Positions 46,331 to 54,534 of a stretch of 64,000 nucleotides of DNA are shown here, one piece after another. The translations under genes were made by a program, and so were the position numbers. The stretch spans positions 4,588,001 to 4,652,000 of the forward strand of contig FNSS01000001.1 in assembly GCA_900104855.1 (NCBI GenBank). Reading direction: 5' to 3'. Each line of letters opens with the position of its first letter. Position 1 is the first letter of the stretch. The notes below the pieces were generated by a model. It saw only the letters and a list, made by a program, of their open reading frames with translations, made no database searches and was not told the DNA's origin. Source of the DNA: Rhizobiales bacterium GAS188. GTDB taxonomy: Bacteria; Pseudomonadota; Alphaproteobacteria; Rhizobiales; Beijerinckiaceae.

Positions 46331-47494
46331 ATGGCTAGCGAGCACAGGAAGCTTGATCGCCGTCATCTCTTGAAAGGCGCTGCCTTGAGCTTCGGGGCAT
46401 TCTCATTTCGCCCTCGAACAGCTTACGCCGCCGGACAGACGGTGACGCTCGCCGATATCGGCGTCGGCGACCCCAATGGCGACTGGTCGGGCTATGCGGG
46501 CGCGACCGGCAACAAGGTCAATGTCGTCTCGATCGGCAACGGGCCATCCGCCGTCCTGAACCAATTGATCGCCGGCGGCGGGCGCCAATCCTATGACATC
46601 ATCAATATCGTCGGCGGCATGCAGAAGCCGCTCGTCGAGAACAAGCTCATCTTGCCGATCGATGTGAACCGGCTGAAGAACTGGCAGAACAACGAATATC
46701 TTTCGACCTATTTCAAGCCCGGGTCGAAGGGCTTCGACTTCATCGGATATGACGGCAAGATCTATGGAGTACCAACGGTCCTCCAAGGAGATGCGTTCGC
46801 CTATCTCCCGGAGAAGACGGGCGAGCTCAACTCCTATGCGGCGCTCTTCGATCCGAAATTCCGCGGCTATGTCGCGGTCGAAGACAATTATACGACGATC
46901 GGTCAGAAGGCCGCCCTCTACCTGAAATCGGCGGGCCTCGCCGATATCAAGGACCCGGCCGATATGAGCAAGGACGAGATCAAGAAGGTCGTCGACTTCC
47001 TCATCCAGAAGAAGAAGGAAGGGCAGTTCCGCGTCGTCTGGTCGAGCTTCGAGCAGGCAGTGAATCTGCTGGTCAACAAAGAAGTCTACGTGATGGATTG
47101 TTGGGAGCCGATGGTGTTTGCCGCCAAGGCCAAGGGCGTCAACGCCGTCTACGCGGCGCCGAAGGAAGGCTACCTGCTCTGGGCCATGGCTGCCTATATC
47201 GTCGCCGGCGATCGCAGCCCTGAGAAGATGGAGGCGTCCTACCAGCTTCTCGACTATATGCTGAGCCCGGAATACGGCGCCATGATCACCAATCTGCGCG
47301 GCTATATGACCAATCCCGCAGCTCCCGACTTTGCGTCGAAGTCGACGAAGTTCGACGCCGCCACCGCCAAGAAGATTGCCGCCATCGATGCCGGCGTGAA
47401 AGTAAAATTCCAGGCCGGTGGCTCGTGGCAGACGAGATGGCCGACCAATATCACGAGCTATGAGGAGGAGTGGCAACGCTTCAAGGCCGCGTGA
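46331..47494 (+). CDS. Polyamine-type ABC substrate-binding protein (PotD-like, Tat signal)
   Basis: The 387-residue periplasmic protein has a twin-arginine type leader (DRRHLLKGAALSFGAFSF, cleaved near AYAA) and then a SBP_bac_8/PotD-like domain. It leads the order SBP, permease, permease, pcp, ATPase. The ligand class (polyamine, opine, modified amino acid) cannot be set from sequence. GGGAGGAG precedes the ATG. Confidence 0.88.
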   Translation: MASEHRKLDRRHLLKGAALSFGAFSFRPRTAYAAGQTVTLADIGVGDPNGDWSGYAGATGNKVNVVSIGNGPSAVLNQLIAGGGRQSYDIINIVGGMQKPLVENKLILPIDVNRLKNWQNNEYLSTYFKPGSKGFDFIGYDGKIYGVPTVLQGDAFAYLPEKTGELNSYAALFDPKFRGYVAVEDNYTTIGQKAALYLKSAGLADIKDPADMSKDEIKKVVDFLIQKKKEGQFRVVWSSFEQAVNLLVNKEVYVMDCWEPMVFAAKAKGVNAVYAAPKEGYLLWAMAAYIVAGDRSPEKMEASYQLLDYMLSPEYGAMITNLRGYMTNPAAPDFASKSTKFDAATAKKIAAIDAGVKVKFQAGGSWQTRWPTNITSYEEEWQRFKAA

Positions 47495-47510
47495 ACATAG
47501 AGCACGGAGC

Positions 47511-48386
47511 ATGAGCTTTGCCTTGCGGCGCCGCGATCTCGGCATCGCGGCGCTTCTCGGAGCGCCGGTGCTTTTATGCGCTCTCGCCATCCTCGTCCCG
47601 CTCGTCCTGACGCTGATCGTCAGCTTCTGGGAACGCCAGATGATCGGCATGAAGCCGGGCTTCAGCCTTGGCGCTTATGCGCTGTTCTTCGAAGGCGTGC
47701 GCTTTTCCGTCCTGAAGCGAAGTTTCTTCGTGGCGACGAGCTCGACAGTGTTGATGTTGGCGATCGCCTATGTCGCCGCCTACATCGTCACCTTCAGGCT
47801 GACGCCGAGATGGGCGCGCATCTTCCTGTTTCTTCTCTCCGTCCCATTTCTCGTCAACTATGTCATCCGGACATTTTCCTTCGCCTATCTCCTGGGTCGC
47901 AGCGGCCCGATCAATCGCTTGCTGCAATGGCTGGACCTGACGAGCGAACCTCTGGATTGGCTCTTGTTCGGCGATTTTTCCGTGTATCTCGGATTGGTCG
48001 CCGCCTATATGCCGTTCATGGTCTACCCGATCTGGCTGTCGCTCGCCGCAATCGACAAGCGGCTGATCGAGGCAAGCTGGACTCTGGGCGAGCCGCCATC
48101 GCGCACCTTCCTGCGCGTGGTGTTGCCGCTCTCGCTCCCCGGCGTCTTCGCCGCGGCCATATTCGGCTTCGTCGGTGCGTTCGGCGAGGTCGCCGTCTCG
48201 CAGATCCTCGGCGGGGTGGGCTATCAGCTCATGGGCAACGCGATCACCAGCGCCCTCGATGTCCTGAACTATCCGATGGCCGCCGCCATGTCGACGGTGG
48301 TGGTCGGCTGCATGCTGCTCCTGCTGCTGATCTGGCTGAGATTCTTCGATCTGCGGCTCTTCCTCGGCAAGATGCTGGGACGATGA
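47511..48386 (+). CDS. ABC transporter permease, PotB type
   Basis: The 291-residue inner-membrane protein has six helices and the cytoplasmic EAA loop IEASWTLGEPPSRTFLRVVLPLSLPGVFA. The start MSFALRRRDLG has GGAG very close upstream; the frame is open earlier but without family sequence. Its stop overlaps the next start by four bases. Confidence 0.9.
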   Translation: MSFALRRRDLGIAALLGAPVLLCALAILVPLVLTLIVSFWERQMIGMKPGFSLGAYALFFEGVRFSVLKRSFFVATSSTVLMLAIAYVAAYIVTFRLTPRWARIFLFLLSVPFLVNYVIRTFSFAYLLGRSGPINRLLQWLDLTSEPLDWLLFGDFSVYLGLVAAYMPFMVYPIWLSLAAIDKRLIEASWTLGEPPSRTFLRVVLPLSLPGVFAAAIFGFVGAFGEVAVSQILGGVGYQLMGNAITSALDVLNYPMAAAMSTVVVGCMLLLLLIWLRFFDLRLFLGKMLGR

Positions 48387-49159
48387 TCATGCGGCCTTCC
48401 GGTCGTCGCATTCTCGTCTGGCTCGCCCTTGCGGGCGTGCTCGTCTTTCTCTACGCGCCCCTTCTGCCGCCGCTCCTCCTGGCGATCGAGGATCCGGTCA
48501 CCGGACAGGCGACGCTGCAGAATTTCACGTCCATCCACTCCGATCCGACCCTCATGGGAGCGGTCTCGAATTCGGTCATCATCGCAGCGATGGTCGGTGT
48601 CGCTGCTCCCCTGCTCGGTCTCGCCGCAGCGCAGGCCGTGCGCAGCTTCGGGACGCCCCGCCTCATCGTCACGGTGATCTTGCTGCCGCTTTTCATTCCA
48701 GGCGTCAGCATGGGCGTCTCGACCAGCCTCTTCTTCAATCTGATGGGGATCGATCCGTCTCTCATGACCATGGCCGCCGTCCAGACGCTCTGGGCGCTCC
48801 CCTTCGCCTTTCTGATCATCATGACGGTGATGTCGGGGTTCGATATGCTGTATCTCGAGGCGGCCTATACCTGCGGCGCCAACCGCGCCCAGGCATTCCT
48901 CGAGGTCGAGCTGCCGCAGATTGCTCCGGGCATCAGCGGCGCCGTCACCTTCTCGATCATCCTGTCCTTCAACGAAACGATCCGGACCGCCGTGGTGCAA
49001 GGCGGCAACAACACGATCCAGACCTTCATCTGGTCGCGCTATCAGCAGGTCGGCCTCACCCCCAATATGTATGCGCTGATGAGCATCATCATCGCCGTCA
49101 CGCTGCTGCTGATCCTGGTGCTCGCGGCGCTCGGGCGCAGGCGGCCATCCCCGATCTGA
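48383..49159 (+). CDS. ABC transporter permease, PotC type
   Basis: The 258-residue inner-membrane protein has the loop YLEAAYTCGANRAQAFLEVELPQIAPGISGA and helices typical of PotC/PotI. A longer plus-strand frame from 47576 is only overlap with the preceding gene. Coupled to the PotB-type gene by ATGA. Confidence 0.9.
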   Translation: MIMRPSGRRILVWLALAGVLVFLYAPLLPPLLLAIEDPVTGQATLQNFTSIHSDPTLMGAVSNSVIIAAMVGVAAPLLGLAAAQAVRSFGTPRLIVTVILLPLFIPGVSMGVSTSLFFNLMGIDPSLMTMAAVQTLWALPFAFLIIMTVMSGFDMLYLEAAYTCGANRAQAFLEVELPQIAPGISGAVTFSIILSFNETIRTAVVQGGNNTIQTFIWSRYQQVGLTPNMYALMSIIIAVTLLLILVLAALGRRRPSPI

Positions 49160-49227
49160 CCGCTCGCCGGCAACACGCCTCGCTGCACGCAAGACTCGAT
49201 GGAAAGAAGCCTCGCTGGAAGCAAGAT

Positions 49228-49887
49228 ATGCCCGAAATTCTGCTCACCGGATTTGAGGCCTATGGAGGGAGAAAGCTCAACCCTTCGGCCGAACTCACAA
49301 ACGCCCTCGATGGGTCGAAGATCGGCGGCTCTGCGGTGCGCGGCCTGCTGCTGCCCGTGTCCTTCGCCGCGGCGAAAGCTCCGCTCGAGGACGCTATCGC
49401 GGAATTTCGCCCAAGCCTCGTCGTCTCGACCGGGCTGTGGCCCGGCGAACCGGTGATCCGTCTGGAGAGAGTGGCGGTCAATCGCGCGAGCTTCGAGATC
49501 CCCGACAATGACGGGCAGCGTCTCCGCGACGAGGAAGTGGAAAAAGGCGGGCCGCTCGCTCGCGCCGCGACCCTCCCGGTGGGTGAGATCATTGCGGCGC
49601 TGCGCCAGAGGGGCATTCCCGCAAGGGCCTCGGACACGGCCGGCACTTATTTGTGCAACACCACCCTCTATCGCGGCCTTGCTGCCTGCGAGCAACTGGG
49701 CTCGGGGGCGCGCTGCGGCTTCGTGCATTTGCCTTATCTGCCCCGGCAGGTCGCTTGGCTTCTCGACGATCTGAGCGATGAGGGGCGGCTCGAGCTGCAT
49801 CAGCGCGCCGATCTCGCCTCGATGGGCTTCGAGACGATGCTCGAGGCGCTGCGCACCATCATCGCCGTCTCGCTCGCTCAGAGCTGA
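49228..49887 (+). CDS. pcp: Pyroglutamyl-peptidase I (cysteine peptidase C15)
   Basis: The 219-residue cytosolic peptidase removes N-terminal pyroglutamate. The catalytic triad is visible: Glu80 in IRLERVAVN, Cys143 in GTYLCNTTLYRG and His167 in CGFVHLPYLP. ILLTGFEAYGG at the start is the family signature. It lies between the permease and ATPase genes of an ABC importer, so the imported compound may be a pyroglutamyl peptide or a pyroglutamyl-blocked amine. Confidence 0.92.
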   Translation: MPEILLTGFEAYGGRKLNPSAELTNALDGSKIGGSAVRGLLLPVSFAAAKAPLEDAIAEFRPSLVVSTGLWPGEPVIRLERVAVNRASFEIPDNDGQRLRDEEVEKGGPLARAATLPVGEIIAALRQRGIPARASDTAGTYLCNTTLYRGLAACEQLGSGARCGFVHLPYLPRQVAWLLDDLSDEGRLELHQRADLASMGFETMLEALRTIIAVSLAQS

Positions 49888-49896
49888 CACTCTTTC

Positions 49897-50970
49897 ATGC
49901 CCGCGTCTTGCCTCCTCCATGTCAACGCCCTCGATAAGAGATTTGGCGAACGGGTCACCGCTTCAGGCGTCGATCTCGAAATCGGAAATGGCGAGTTCTT
50001 CACGATGCTGGGGCCGAGCGGCTCCGGCAAGTCGACGATCCTGCGCATGATCGCGGGTCTGGAACAGCCGGATGGCGGCCGCATATTCCTGGACGGCAAG
50101 GATGTGACGGAGCTGCCGCCCTGGCGGCGCGAGCTCGGAATGGTGTTCCAGCAATATGCGAATTTCCCCCATATGAGCGTCGCCCAGAATGTCGGCTACG
50201 GGCTGCGGCGCAAGGCTCTCGGGGGGCAAGCGACACGTGGCCGGATCGCCGAATTGCTGCAGCTCGTCGGTCTTTCGGGATTCGAGGACAGATCCGTCAC
50301 CAGGCTCTCGGGCGGCGAGCAGCAGCGCGTTGCCATTGCCCGGGCGCTCGCGCCTCGTCCGCGCCTCCTGCTTCTCGACGAACCGCTCTCGGCGCTCGAC
50401 GAGAAGATCAGGCGCGGCATGCAGGCGCAATTGAAGGACATCCAAAGGGCGACCGGAACCACCTTTGTCTATGTGACCCATGATCAGGAAGAAGCCCTGA
50501 CGATGAGCGACAGGGTGGCGGTGCTCAATTTCGGCCATCTCGTTCAGGTCGACGCGCCGCAGACGATCTTCCGTCGCCCGAAGACGAAATTCGTGGCGGA
50601 CTTCTTTCGCGGCAGCAATCTCGTCGAGGGCCGGCTCGTCGGCCGAGACGGGCAGCAATTCTTCGAATGCGCCGCCTTCAGCGTAGCGCTGCCGCATTCC
50701 TTCCGGCTTCCGGCCGACCCGCCTTGCGTGGCGATCCGGGGCGAGGACATGAAGATCGCCGACCGCGCCGCTCCGGGCGACGTGACCTTTGCGGCCGTCC
50801 TGGAGCGGATCGTCTATCGCGGCGTCTATACCGATTATGATCTGCGCCTCGCTGACGGCCAGGCGGTCACGGCCTGCACGACCTCAGTCCTCGACATCCC
50901 GGTCGGGCAGAGCCTCCACATAGCCGTGAGACCTGAAGCCATCGTGCCGCTCCATGCCGAGCCCGCCTGA
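49897..50970 (+). CDS. ABC transporter ATPase, PotA type
   Basis: The 357-residue ATPase has Walker [10 protein letters not shown] (residues 39-47), Q-loop [12 protein letters not shown], signature [15 protein letters not shown], Walker [13 protein letters not shown], switch His in VTHDQEEA, and the TOBE regulatory domain at the C-terminus (about 250-357). It completes the importer after the pcp gene. The ATG at 49897 has no clear SD. Confidence 0.93.
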
Positions 50971-51446
50971 AACCTGCTTGCGCCTCTTCCCTCTCGGCGC
51001 TCTTCGCGCGGGTGAGGGTGGTCGGATAAACATATCTCATCCGTCCATGCAGTTATTGTGAAATTATTCTAAGGACGACAAGCAAAGTCCGCGGCGATCG
51101 CCGTCTCTAAACTGCCGCCGGTGATGTTGAAGGACGAAATCGCGCCTGGCGAGGCTGACCCATGTCATCGTTCCCCGCTTGCCGGATTATGTGACGCAGC
51201 GAGCATCATGTGGCGCAGCGAGCATCATGCGACGCAGCGACATGGATGCTACGCTAGGTTTGCGTTTCTAACCAACACACGCCATACTTGCGTGCGGGAT
51301 TAGAGTCCCCCAATACTCTGCGGAGGGGAATTGCTTGACAGCAGTTTTGTCAGCGCACGCAGACATTTGGACAAACGCAGAATTGGCCAAAGTTCGACAA
51401 GTCGAAGGGACTTGCAAGGCATTCCTTCCCTGGCAGGAGGACTATT
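50971..51446. promoter_or_regulatory. 476-base upstream region of the LodA-like gene
   Basis: No gene was seen. It holds a short tandem repeat (listed separately). Close to lodA lie TTGACA at 51335-51340 inside a TGACA/TGTCA dyad (51336-51352), TTGGCCAA at 51383-51390, and TTCGAC-AA-GTCGAA at 51393-51406. No good -10 follows TTGACA at 17 bases. The dyads are candidate operators for control of the oxidase operon. Confidence 0.45.
51191..51243. repeat. 19-bp tandem repeat, about 2.8 copies
   Basis: The unit GTGACGCAGCGAGCATCAT occurs at 51191 and (one change) 51210, with a partial third copy at 51229. It lies in the otherwise empty region upstream of the LodA-like gene. Confidence 0.8.
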
Positions 51447-53417
51447 GTGGCACAGACCTTTGTCATTGGACCGTCAATCGGCGTCGCGCGTCTGGGCAAC
51501 AGCCCGGGCCAGTTCTATGTCGAGCCGGAGACGATAGCTGGGTTGCCGCTGGAATGCGACACACAGGGCAACGTCTCCGACCCTGCCTCGCTCGTGCGGA
51601 AGTTCAAGGACGGTCAGGGCCGCGTGAGGCGTCAAGCGGCGCGGTTCCGCGTGTTCCGCCTCGATGGGGCAGGAGCTTCGCGGGAGGTGACGCTGAAGGA
51701 TCGGGACATCGCGCACATACGTTGGACGGTGCATCTCGCCAACAAGAAGGCCGCCTGGTACCAGTTCTCCGAACTCGAGGGCAATCTTCTCCATGGCCAG
51801 TCCAACAGCTATGAGGCCCGCAAGGTTGCCCGCCGGAACAAGGGCGTCACGGTCAAGAAGGAGCGTCAGCGCCTATTGATCGACCCGGGCCCACGAACGC
51901 TCGACGGCCCCGGTCTGGTGGCGCATTTCGACAGGGCGAGCGTCCCCGCCAACTACAAATTCGCCAGTTTTCCCGATGCCGTGACCTTGGGGGACCGGGT
52001 GACGACGCTGGGTGAGGCACGCACGGACAAGGTGGGACGTCTTCTCGTGCTCGGCGGACTCGGCCGGTCGGGCGGAAACAAGCCGATCGTGTCTTTCGCC
52101 GGCGCCGATACTTGGCACGATGACATCTCTGACGGCCCCGTGACTTGCAGCCTCTCGCTCAAATCCGGCGAGACGGTCACGCTCCGGGCGTGGTGTCTGG
52201 TCGGATCGCCGAAATTCGTGCCGGAAATCGCGAACGTCACGACGCTCGACGACACGATGTATGATGTCGCCGTTCGCCACCTCGGCCTGGCGCCGGACAT
52301 GTTCAGCAGGGGTCGTTACAACCGGAATTACATCGCCAATTTCGATCGCGACGTCAGGCCCATCCTGGAGCGACCCGCAGCGTATCGCTGGGTTGCGAAT
52401 ATTCCTTCGCTCAATTCGCTGTCTCCGCCGCCCTTCGCCCCTCGCGATGCCAGCGCGGCCGCCGCGCCGCTGCGGCAAGCCTATCTCGCCTTTTTCAGGG
52501 AACCCGGACCGGAGGGCGCCGTGGCGGCGAGCCATAACGCGCTGTTTTCGAAAGACGCGTTTCCGTTGATGCCGCTCAATTCCGGAAGCAACTCGGTCAG
52601 CGACATCGGTGTCGACAAATTCCTGACGCTGACCGAGACGCAATATTTTCTTCTCAGGCAATGGGCAGACGGCAAATTTACGACCGACCCGCCGCCCGAA
52701 CCTGCGGATCCCATCCGCCTCAGCCGCGCCAGCACCGGCAATTGCGTCGGGGCGCCGTTCTGCCCGGGGATCGAGGTGACATGGAGCGTGCGCAATCCGA
52801 ATATCTATGATGCCCCCTGGAGCATTCGGCACCGCGACGACGGCAACCTCTACGTCAAGGTCGGGCTGGACCCGTCACGGGACGAAACCGCCGACAAAGG
52901 CGGGTGCGAGCCGGGCGACCTCACCAAGCGCATGGCCATCCCCTGGCAGGCCGATTTTTTCGAATGCTCCGTGCAGACCATCAATTTCACGGATCCGGGA
53001 CGCAATACCAATGGCGACATTCCGCTGCCACCCACCTACTACGCCTATTGGTGGCCGCCCCAAAGCCCATGGCAGGTCATCAGCGGCGATATGACGGCGG
53101 CGGCCCAACATGCCTCCGGAAACCCGGCAGGGATCCAGGTGATGTACAGCCGCGGCGTCGACTCCTTCGAACACATGATCAAGCTCTGGTCGTATCTCGG
53201 CTTTGTTGCCAATCAGGCAACGGGGCCGCACCGAACTCTCTTCCCGTATTTCACCGAGCAGGAGCGCGCGCATGACAAGCTTCCGCAAACGCAACCCGGC
53301 GTCGGCGCGAATGCGCTGATCGCCGTCGCTGCCGAGGCGGCGGTAGCGCCCCCCGGCGAACGCATGGTCGCATTCGAAACCTCGCGGCAGCGCGGACGTG
53401 TACCAGGCGCACGTTGA
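51447..53417 (+). CDS. LodA-like quinoprotein amino-acid oxidase
   Basis: The 656-residue protein has the LodA/GoxA hallmarks: VIGPSIGVARLGNSP-FYVEPE at the N-terminus, NYxIANFDRDVRPIL-type central sequence, and the cofactor region PWQADFFECS with Asp503 and Cys507 at the spacing of LodA Asp512/Cys516. A YWWPPQSPW motif (Trp535/536) follows. LodA makes its cysteine tryptophylquinone (CTQ) from a Cys and a Trp of the chain and oxidises lysine, releasing H2O2, which kills competitors; GoxA oxidises glycine. The substrate here is unknown. The partner Trp cannot be fixed by eye (535, 536 or 581). GTG start with AGGAGG six bases upstream. No signal peptide, as in the family. Confidence 0.88.
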   Translation: MAQTFVIGPSIGVARLGNSPGQFYVEPETIAGLPLECDTQGNVSDPASLVRKFKDGQGRVRRQAARFRVFRLDGAGASREVTLKDRDIAHIRWTVHLANKKAAWYQFSELEGNLLHGQSNSYEARKVARRNKGVTVKKERQRLLIDPGPRTLDGPGLVAHFDRASVPANYKFASFPDAVTLGDRVTTLGEARTDKVGRLLVLGGLGRSGGNKPIVSFAGADTWHDDISDGPVTCSLSLKSGETVTLRAWCLVGSPKFVPEIANVTTLDDTMYDVAVRHLGLAPDMFSRGRYNRNYIANFDRDVRPILERPAAYRWVANIPSLNSLSPPPFAPRDASAAAAPLRQAYLAFFREPGPEGAVAASHNALFSKDAFPLMPLNSGSNSVSDIGVDKFLTLTETQYFLLRQWADGKFTTDPPPEPADPIRLSRASTGNCVGAPFCPGIEVTWSVRNPNIYDAPWSIRHRDDGNLYVKVGLDPSRDETADKGGCEPGDLTKRMAIPWQADFFECSVQTINFTDPGRNTNGDIPLPPTYYAYWWPPQSPWQVISGDMTAAAQHASGNPAGIQVMYSRGVDSFEHMIKLWSYLGFVANQATGPHRTLFPYFTEQERAHDKLPQTQPGVGANALIAVAAEAAVAPPGERMVAFETSRQRGRVPGAR

Positions 53418-54534
53418 CGTCGCGGTCATCGGCGGCGGTCCTGCCGGCACTGCGGCGGCGCTGGCGCTGCTGAGATATTCCCGGCACAGGGTTCTGCTGC
53501 TCGAGCGAACGTCTTACGAAGAGCGGCGTATCGGCGAGACGGTTTCGTCGGGCCTTCGCCCCCTCCTGTCTTATCTTGGGGTCGACGACCCGCTGCCCGG
53601 CAACCATCTCCGTTCTGCCGGCCGCATCGCCGCCTGGGGGCATTCGCAGCCCGCGATTCGGGAATCGCTTTTCGACGCATCCGGGCCCGGCTGGCACCTC
53701 GACCGGCGGCGCTTCGATGCGAGCCTTGCGGATGCGGTCGAGCGCCTGGGAGGGACTGTTCTGCGCGGCACGGCCGCAAGCTCCGCGGCGCGCGCCGGCA
53801 AAGCTTGGGAATTGACGATCAAGGGCCGGGCGACCGGCCGCATTTTGGCCGAACATCTCATCGTGGCATCGGGCGCAAGTTCAGCGTTCCAGACTGCTCT
53901 CGGATCGTCCCGCTTGGCTCATGATCGGCTGCTCGCGCTGGTGACTTTTGTCGAGGCGACCGCAGCGCCGACCCTGTTGATCGAGGCCGCGCCGGACGGC
54001 TGGTGGTACAGCGCTCCTTCTGCCGACGGAATTGTCGCGGCGTATATGACCGATGCCGATCTCATCTCGCCGAAGAGCCTGGGAGCTGCCGGTTTCGCCA
54101 GCCTGCTGGTGCAGGCGCCGCTCACGACAGCACGCCTTTCGGGATCGGGCCCGAGATCGCGCCCACGCGCCTTCTTGGCATTCTCGCAGGTCGCGAACCC
54201 ATGCTTGGGTGAAAACTGGGTGGGCGCGGGAGACGCCGTCGCGTCGTTCGATCCGCTGTCGTCACTCGGAATCGGACACGCCGTCGCGACCGGAATCCAG
54301 GCGGCACGCATCGTCGCCGAGCGCCTTGCGGGGCGTGGGGGCCTCGGCGCCACCTATTCGTCGGATGTGGCCTTGAACGTCAGAACCTATCAGGAGCAAC
54401 GCCGCTTTCTCTACGGTCTGGAACGACGCTGGTCAGATCGCGCCTTCTGGTCTCGGCGCCATAGGGAGCCAGCGCTTGCGCGGCCTCTCAGGGGATCGGC
54501 CCGTGACACGGCGCAATTCGTGCTGCCCGCTTAG
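53398..54534 (+). CDS. LodB-like FAD-dependent maturation enzyme
   Basis: The 378-residue flavoprotein of the tryptophan-halogenase/geranylgeranyl-reductase-like fold has VAVIGGGPAGTAAALALLR (FAD-binding), a GETVSSGLRPLL segment and GAGDAVASFDPLSSLGIGHAVATGI (second FAD motif). In Marinomonas, LodB is needed to form the CTQ cofactor in LodA, probably by hydroxylating the tryptophan. The GTG start lies 20 bases inside the lodA-like gene, so synthesis is coupled. Its stop overlaps the convergent TetR stop by four bases. Confidence 0.87.
   Translation: MYQAHVDVAVIGGGPAGTAAALALLRYSRHRVLLLERTSYEERRIGETVSSGLRPLLSYLGVDDPLPGNHLRSAGRIAAWGHSQPAIRESLFDASGPGWHLDRRRFDASLADAVERLGGTVLRGTAASSAARAGKAWELTIKGRATGRILAEHLIVASGASSAFQTALGSSRLAHDRLLALVTFVEATAAPTLLIEAAPDGWWYSAPSADGIVAAYMTDADLISPKSLGAAGFASLLVQAPLTTARLSGSGPRSRPRAFLAFSQVANPCLGENWVGAGDAVASFDPLSSLGIGHAVATGIQAARIVAERLAGRGGLGATYSSDVALNVRTYQEQRRFLYGLERRWSDRAFWSRRHREPALARPLRGSARDTAQFVLPA

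Follow-up and report, generated by a model that had tools for sequence, protein, structure and literature searches.

The closest described relatives of the gene pair reported here are LodA and LodB of Marinomonas mediterranea, an L-lysine 6-oxidase system (EC 1.4.3.20; structures 3weu and 2ymw), and their group IA kin AlpP and PfaP. A 2014 survey (PMC4417212) divided the LodA-like family into groups I to V. In the portions of that survey cited here, LodA and AlpP, both lysine epsilon-oxidases, form group IA, in which Alphaproteobacteria were not found; one Pseudoalteromonas flavipulchra strain is cited for a protein reported to oxidize several amino acids; groups IB to ID, III, and IV appear with no reported oxidase substrate; and the glycine oxidase GoxA belongs to group II, whose subgroups IIA and IIB are mostly alphaproteobacterial (13/15). 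Elsewhere, a Rheinheimera aquatica protein that contains a LodA/AlpP-like peptide is described as having lysine oxidase activity (PMC4699246, cited in part), and an abundant putative LodA is described in a Kordia bloom (PMC12172471, likewise). On maturation, the cited section of PMC7876137 holds that the first hydroxylation of the LodA and GoxA Trp is thought to be autocatalytic, with LodB and GoxB acting on the monohydroxylated form, and that a conserved Asp is believed to be involved, even though cysteine tryptophylquinone (CTQ) still formed in an Asp mutant of GoxA. What determines which substrate a LodA-family enzyme accepts is not settled; in the literature cited here, the characterized members are lysine and glycine oxidases, together with the one P. 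flavipulchra report of a broad range.

Here we describe a lodA-lodB pair in a 64,000-nucleotide stretch of DNA from Rhizobiales bacterium GAS188 (contig FNSS01000001.1, positions 4,588,001 to 4,652,000; hereafter, the window). Judged from its sequence, the pair is predicted to encode a CTQ amine oxidase of the LodA lineage with a dedicated LodB maturase, and we give somewhat better than an even chance to the epsilon-amine of L-lysine, the likeliest substrate.

The lodAB pair and its place in the LodA lineage

The window oxidase contains both LodA domains (Pfam LodA_N, E = 4e-64; LodA_C, E = 1e-49), each above the curated cutoff, and in a PDB search it matched the LodA structures 3weu and 2ymw with an E value of about 1e-172 and nine glycine oxidase sequences with E values of 8e-23 to 4e-20. 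It is 47.8% identical to M. mediterranea LodA over 596 columns and scores 829 bits with the NCBIfam LodA "lysine 6-oxidase" equivalog model (NF038172; cutoff, 600 bits). Alignment to 3weu and 2ymw pairs Asp503 with LodA Asp512, Cys507 with Cys516, and Trp536 with Trp581, which agrees with the Asp503/Cys507 site proposed in an earlier, sequence-only reading of this locus. The cofactor Trp, which that reading had singled out for checking, is not missing: the Asp/Cys/Trp triad occurs in 101/101 LodA-like proteins in an alignment that comprises the window protein and 100 relatives and, being invariant, carries no substrate information. The window protein shares with core members of the lineage a signature (here PPTYYAYWW) that ends at the cofactor Trp. 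In two other loci (L119:1354-3558 and L138:1372-3927), PPxYYxYWW is replaced by APPTFSAVWW/PPPTFAAVWW.

The second gene encodes a protein in which the flavin adenine dinucleotide (FAD) motif GGGPAG can be read. Its top-scoring NCBIfam family is LodB (NF038171; 269 bits; cutoff, 400), followed by GoxB (206; cutoff, 400) and QhpG (134; cutoff, 240). The sequence-only reading had called a LodAB-type oxidase with an overlapping FAD maturase, and the two LodA domains, the gene overlap, this motif, and these best matches bear it out; its coordinates for the two genes were also correct. Both reading frames are intact. lodA starts with GTG, 5 bases behind AGGAGGA, and its frame contains no ATG, GTG, or TTG between this codon and the preceding stop. 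No leader peptide was seen by eye on the window LodA; at the N terminus of L119, a twin-arginine-like leader was noted by eye.

LodA trees were built from 93 rows (quick; Shimodaira-Hasegawa-like approximate likelihood ratio test [SH-aLRT]) and from 38 rows (careful; bootstrap/SH-aLRT); AlpP is absent from both, and they do not reproduce the 2015 boundary of group IA. In both trees the window LodA is sister to L137, from another genome of the same class (support, 93 and 91/84), and these two together with L016 of Sorangium flank a core clade (44 rows, support 99; 25 rows, 100/100) containing LodA, P. flavipulchra L059, Rheinheimera, cyanobacteria, and Bacteroidota. L119 and L138, also of this class, branch outside the window, L137, L016, and the core, the whole set being supported at 100/100. 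Because the node uniting the window, L137, L016, and the core is weak (86/80), the basal branching order is not settled. In the LodB tree, too, the core (27 rows; support, 99) excludes the window, L016, and L137; unlike the LodA trees, it places L119 and L138 elsewhere. The window LodA is a basal branch of the LodA lineage, just outside the LodA-bearing core.

This branching and the score of 829 bits against a cutoff of 600 make L-lysine the default prediction. They also leave unsupported the argument of the sequence-only reading for an unknown substrate, which drew on the alphaproteobacterial groups. Nor do all such groups lack a substrate lead, since IIA and IIB sit with the glycine oxidase GoxA in the cited part of the survey (PMC4417212). 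That reading is therefore partly supported: it had the right system and the wrong reason for leaving the substrate open. Doubt about lysine does exist, as set out below, and it comes from two residues rather than from those groups, outside which this copy lies.

Active-site residues and the predicted substrate

For the family, the cofactor and chemistry are established, and the window copy would be expected to act in the same way. LodB would help turn Trp536 and Cys507 into CTQ, which would bind the substrate amine as a Schiff base; aldehyde and ammonia would then be released, and O2 would reoxidize the cofactor, giving H2O2. A role for this H2O2 as an antibacterial or biofilm effector is plausible by analogy, the antibacterial part resting on the cited passages of PMC4699246.

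Residue counts refer to the 57 proteins with the [PA]PxYYxYWW signature among 129 aligned, or to an earlier set of 56. In the alignment to 3weu and 2ymw, Phe217, Cys439, and Thr521 of the window protein correspond to LodA Tyr211, Cys448, and Lys530. These three LodA residues have reportedly been studied by mutation, as have the matching Phe and His of GoxA; a text search for the residues, over literature that excludes the papers on mutants of the LodA active site, turned up nothing about LodA. Position 448 is Cys in 55/57 signature proteins, the window included, and Ser in the other 2. The corresponding residues in L119 and L138, neither of which carries the signature, are Phe (211), Lys (530), and Ser (448). 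An AlphaFold model of the window LodA has a mean pLDDT (predicted local distance difference test score) of 64.9, with active-site segments below 50, and was not used for arguments about the pocket.

Several observations weigh against lysine oxidation by a close counterpart of LodA. Position 211 is Tyr in 55/57 signature proteins and Phe in the window and L137, and position 530 is Lys in 56/57 and Thr in the window alone. Within the 56-member set, the other 55 proteins all have Tyr211 and Lys530 and show no variation at 157 columns; the window protein breaks 13 of these 157, the highest count of all (L016 and L065 break 5 each and the remaining members at most 3), and five of these 13 lie at LodA positions 299 to 327. 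It keeps 37 of 53 core-specific positions, compared with 42 in L137 and 39 in L016; L119 and L138 keep fewer (35 and 31). It stands outside the 25-row core clade that includes LodA. Its LodB, though best matched by NF038171, falls short of that model's cutoff, which the LodBs of L137 (266 bits) and L016 (334 bits) also miss. Finally, the NF038172 cutoff admits every one of the four proteins from the class, not only the window and L137 (864 bits) but also L119 (682 bits) and L138 (665 bits) without the lineage signature. Passing this cutoff is thus weak proof of lysine use, and the NCBIfam LodA model may over-call lysine oxidases.

The Phe at position 211 also raises the question of a glycine oxidase of the GoxA type. 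Among three glycine oxidase PDB chains aligned, Phe316 occupies this position in 3/3, while position 448 is His583 in two and Cys in the third (6vl7), which we take to be a mutant. The window protein has Cys439 at a site where 34/46 nonlineage proteins have His, scores 216 bits with the GoxA model NF038173 (cutoff, 750), and lies far in the LodA tree from an annotated GoxA (L100). We regard a GoxA-type enzyme as very improbable.

A better-placed alternative, which we advance only tentatively, is that the substrate channel of this LodA-lineage CTQ oxidase has been re-tuned, so that it would act not on free L-lysine but on another primary amine (a lysine derivative, ornithine, a diamine, or peptide-bound lysine). 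The replacement of Tyr211 by Phe217 and of Lys530 by Thr521 suits this proposal; Lys530 is retained by the outer kin L119 and L138 as well as by 56/57 signature proteins. So does the contrast between two classes of position. The window protein keeps 55/55 of the family-wide ones (those conserved in 95% or more of the remaining 128 proteins), which leaves its catalytic frame intact, whereas the layer specific to the lineage has been eroded, as would be expected if the enzyme were still active but its specificity had changed. In addition, group I may include proteins inactive on lysine: the cited part of PMC4417212 mentions, as unpublished observations, that lysine oxidase activity was not detected when four organisms from groups IB, IC, and ID were cultured. 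On the other hand, Phe at 211 is common to L137, L119, and L138 and is not a private change of the window, so that half of the signal is not unique, and a contribution of Lys530 to lysine binding could not be confirmed. Of 13 positions looked up, 211 and 530 among them, 11 are invariant in the other lineage members; with 2/11 of these changed, compared with 13/157 overall, enrichment of changes at the active site is not shown. The branch that leads to the window protein (0.86) is also among the longer ones in the lineage, so some changes would be expected in any case, and no neighboring gene suggests another substrate, the upstream transport cassette described below being found elsewhere without lodAB.

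Another reading is that lodAB was acquired and, with selection relaxed, is now decaying or only weakly active. The end branches are long (0.86 for LodA and 1.24 for LodB), the count of broken lineage-invariant columns is the highest among the 56 members, and lodAB was not found in three draft genomes of the same genus. However, LodA itself has a longer end branch (0.93), both frames are open, every family-wide position is kept, the ribosome-binding site is good, and GC content at third codon positions (0.77 in lodA and 0.74 in lodB) is near that of ten neighbors, which is slightly higher (0.78 to 0.84). A change or loosening of specificity accounts for the residue pattern better than the death of the gene would, and we consider decay unlikely.

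L-Lysine remains our preferred substrate, and its recognition is possibly weaker or broader than in LodA. With Tyr211 and Lys530 both gone, there is a substantial, if smaller, chance that this alphaproteobacterial side branch oxidizes a primary amine other than free L-lysine. Were that so, it would be a natural specificity variant separating the cofactor machinery from lysine recognition. A LodA with 55/55 family-wide positions and the signature, yet without Lys530, offers a clean test of the residues that read lysine.

Genomic surroundings, spread, and origin

The functional unit is the pair of lodA and lodB (Table 1). When 11 loci were compared and 15 window genes tried, only LodA and LodB matched across loci, with the exceptions of generic ATP-binding cassette (ABC) transporter matches in L149 and a weak coenzyme A ligase match in L150. 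A scan of six neighboring proteins detected no tyrosinase and no multicopper oxidase, and no neighbor gene indicates a substrate. A TetR regulator and a short-chain dehydrogenase/reductase lie downstream of lodB on the opposite strand.

Table 1. Coordinates of lodAB, its aligned active-site codons, and upstream features in the window
Feature	Position	Strand	Description
lodA	51447-53417	+	656-amino-acid LodA-lineage quinoprotein oxidase; predicted CTQ from Cys507 and Trp536, conserved Asp503
lodB	53398-54534	+	378-amino-acid FAD-dependent maturase; 20-base overlap with lodA
TTC codon, Phe217	52095-52097	+	LodA Tyr211 position
TGC codon, Cys439	52761-52763	+	LodA Cys448 (kept)
GAT codon, Asp503	52953-52955	+	LodA Asp512
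TGC codon, Cys507	52965-52967	+	LodA Cys516 (cofactor)
ACC codon, Thr521	53007-53009	+	LodA Lys530 position
TGG codon, Trp536	53052-53054	+	LodA Trp581 (cofactor quinone)
Three direct 19-base repeats	51186-51242	+	end 204 bases upstream of lodA
ABC cassette with pyroglutamyl peptidase	46331-50970		upstream of lodA; solute-binding protein, permease, permease, pyroglutamyl peptidase, ATPase

The 19-base repeat array lies in the 476-base gap between the ATPase gene and lodA and is a possible candidate for a regulator-binding site; a promoter scan found no promoter.

The ABC cassette possibly imports a pyroglutamyl compound. Its ATPase has PotA as its best family (329 bits; cutoff, 482), and its solute-binding protein shares 84% identity with a Microvirga ossetica counterpart, which suggests that the genome is alphaproteobacterial (Hyphomicrobiales). 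A five-gene cassette of the same kind stands beside repC on an M. ossetica plasmid with no lodAB after it, and the plasmid DNA is 74 to 77% identical, in pieces, to the window from 46426 to 50963, stopping at the end of the ATPase gene; the cassette is therefore probably outside the lodAB unit. A similar cassette occurs in 1/3 same-genus genomes (L151), with peptidase and ATPase inverted, on a contig that ends before the flanks. The idea of a polyamine substrate, drawn from the PotA-like transporter, was weakened by the plasmid copy of the cassette and set aside.

The window genome (9.09 Mb) has a single LodA_C match; a 16S search of it returned no match. The genome counts that follow come from samples of larger groups. 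NF038172 was matched in 1/60 relatives, the window genome itself, and in 12/398 genomes of the phylum, with only the window genome above the cutoff. LodA-like proteins at an E value of 1e-30, the window included, were found in 11/298 genomes of the family (best other, 42% identity), 15/397 of the order (best other, L119), and 12/385 of the class (best others, L137 and L138); none was found in the three same-genus drafts. Of the named relatives among the best 80 of 133 loci, the Sorangium LodA-like protein comes nearest, at 55% identity. The best match in a plasmid search was 48.6% identical to the window LodA, and viral contigs gave no match. This scattered distribution suggests horizontal acquisition of lodAB. 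LodA-lineage proteins are present in Alphaproteobacteria in the window copy and three others (L137, L119, and L138).

Comparison with known systems

GoxA glycine oxidases share with the window protein the family, the CTQ triad, and Phe at the 211 position, and differ in having His at the 448 position and in their distant place in the tree. Rhizobial LodA operons resembling group ID (e.g., L098) also combine a LodA-like gene with lodB, adding a multicopper oxidase, a tyrosinase, and a small gene; they belong to a different clade, and between the window lodA and lodB there is no room for the small gene. On an Azospirillum brasilense plasmid (L097:4617-9037), genes for a LodA-like oxidase and a ferritin-like protein occur together with a LodB-like gene whose annotation is tryptophan 7-halogenase.

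L016 of Sorangium cellulosum So ceGT47 joins a LodA that is 55% identical to that of the window with the LodB closest to the window's (44%); unlike the window, it keeps Tyr211 and Lys530 and has Ser at 448. Its LodA-like frame (L016:7290-10094) encodes 934 amino acids, with some 237 residues before the LodA part, either a real extension or the product of a mechanical choice of the first start. The nearest LodA found, L137 (genome G1247), is 56% identical and has Phe at 211 and an adjacent LodB; unlike the window protein, it keeps Lys530 and 42/53 core-specific positions.

The loop from the cofactor Cys to the cofactor Trp spans 29 residues in the window protein, a length common among core members, and 65 in LodA; in the LodA-like oxidase of L097, these two residues are just 13 apart. 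Compared with M. mediterranea LodA, the window protein has Phe for Tyr211 and Thr for Lys530, its LodB scores below the family cutoff, and it lies outside the core clade. The two systems have in common both LodA domains, the CTQ triad, Cys448, the PPxYYxYWW signature, and a lodB directly 3' of lodA.

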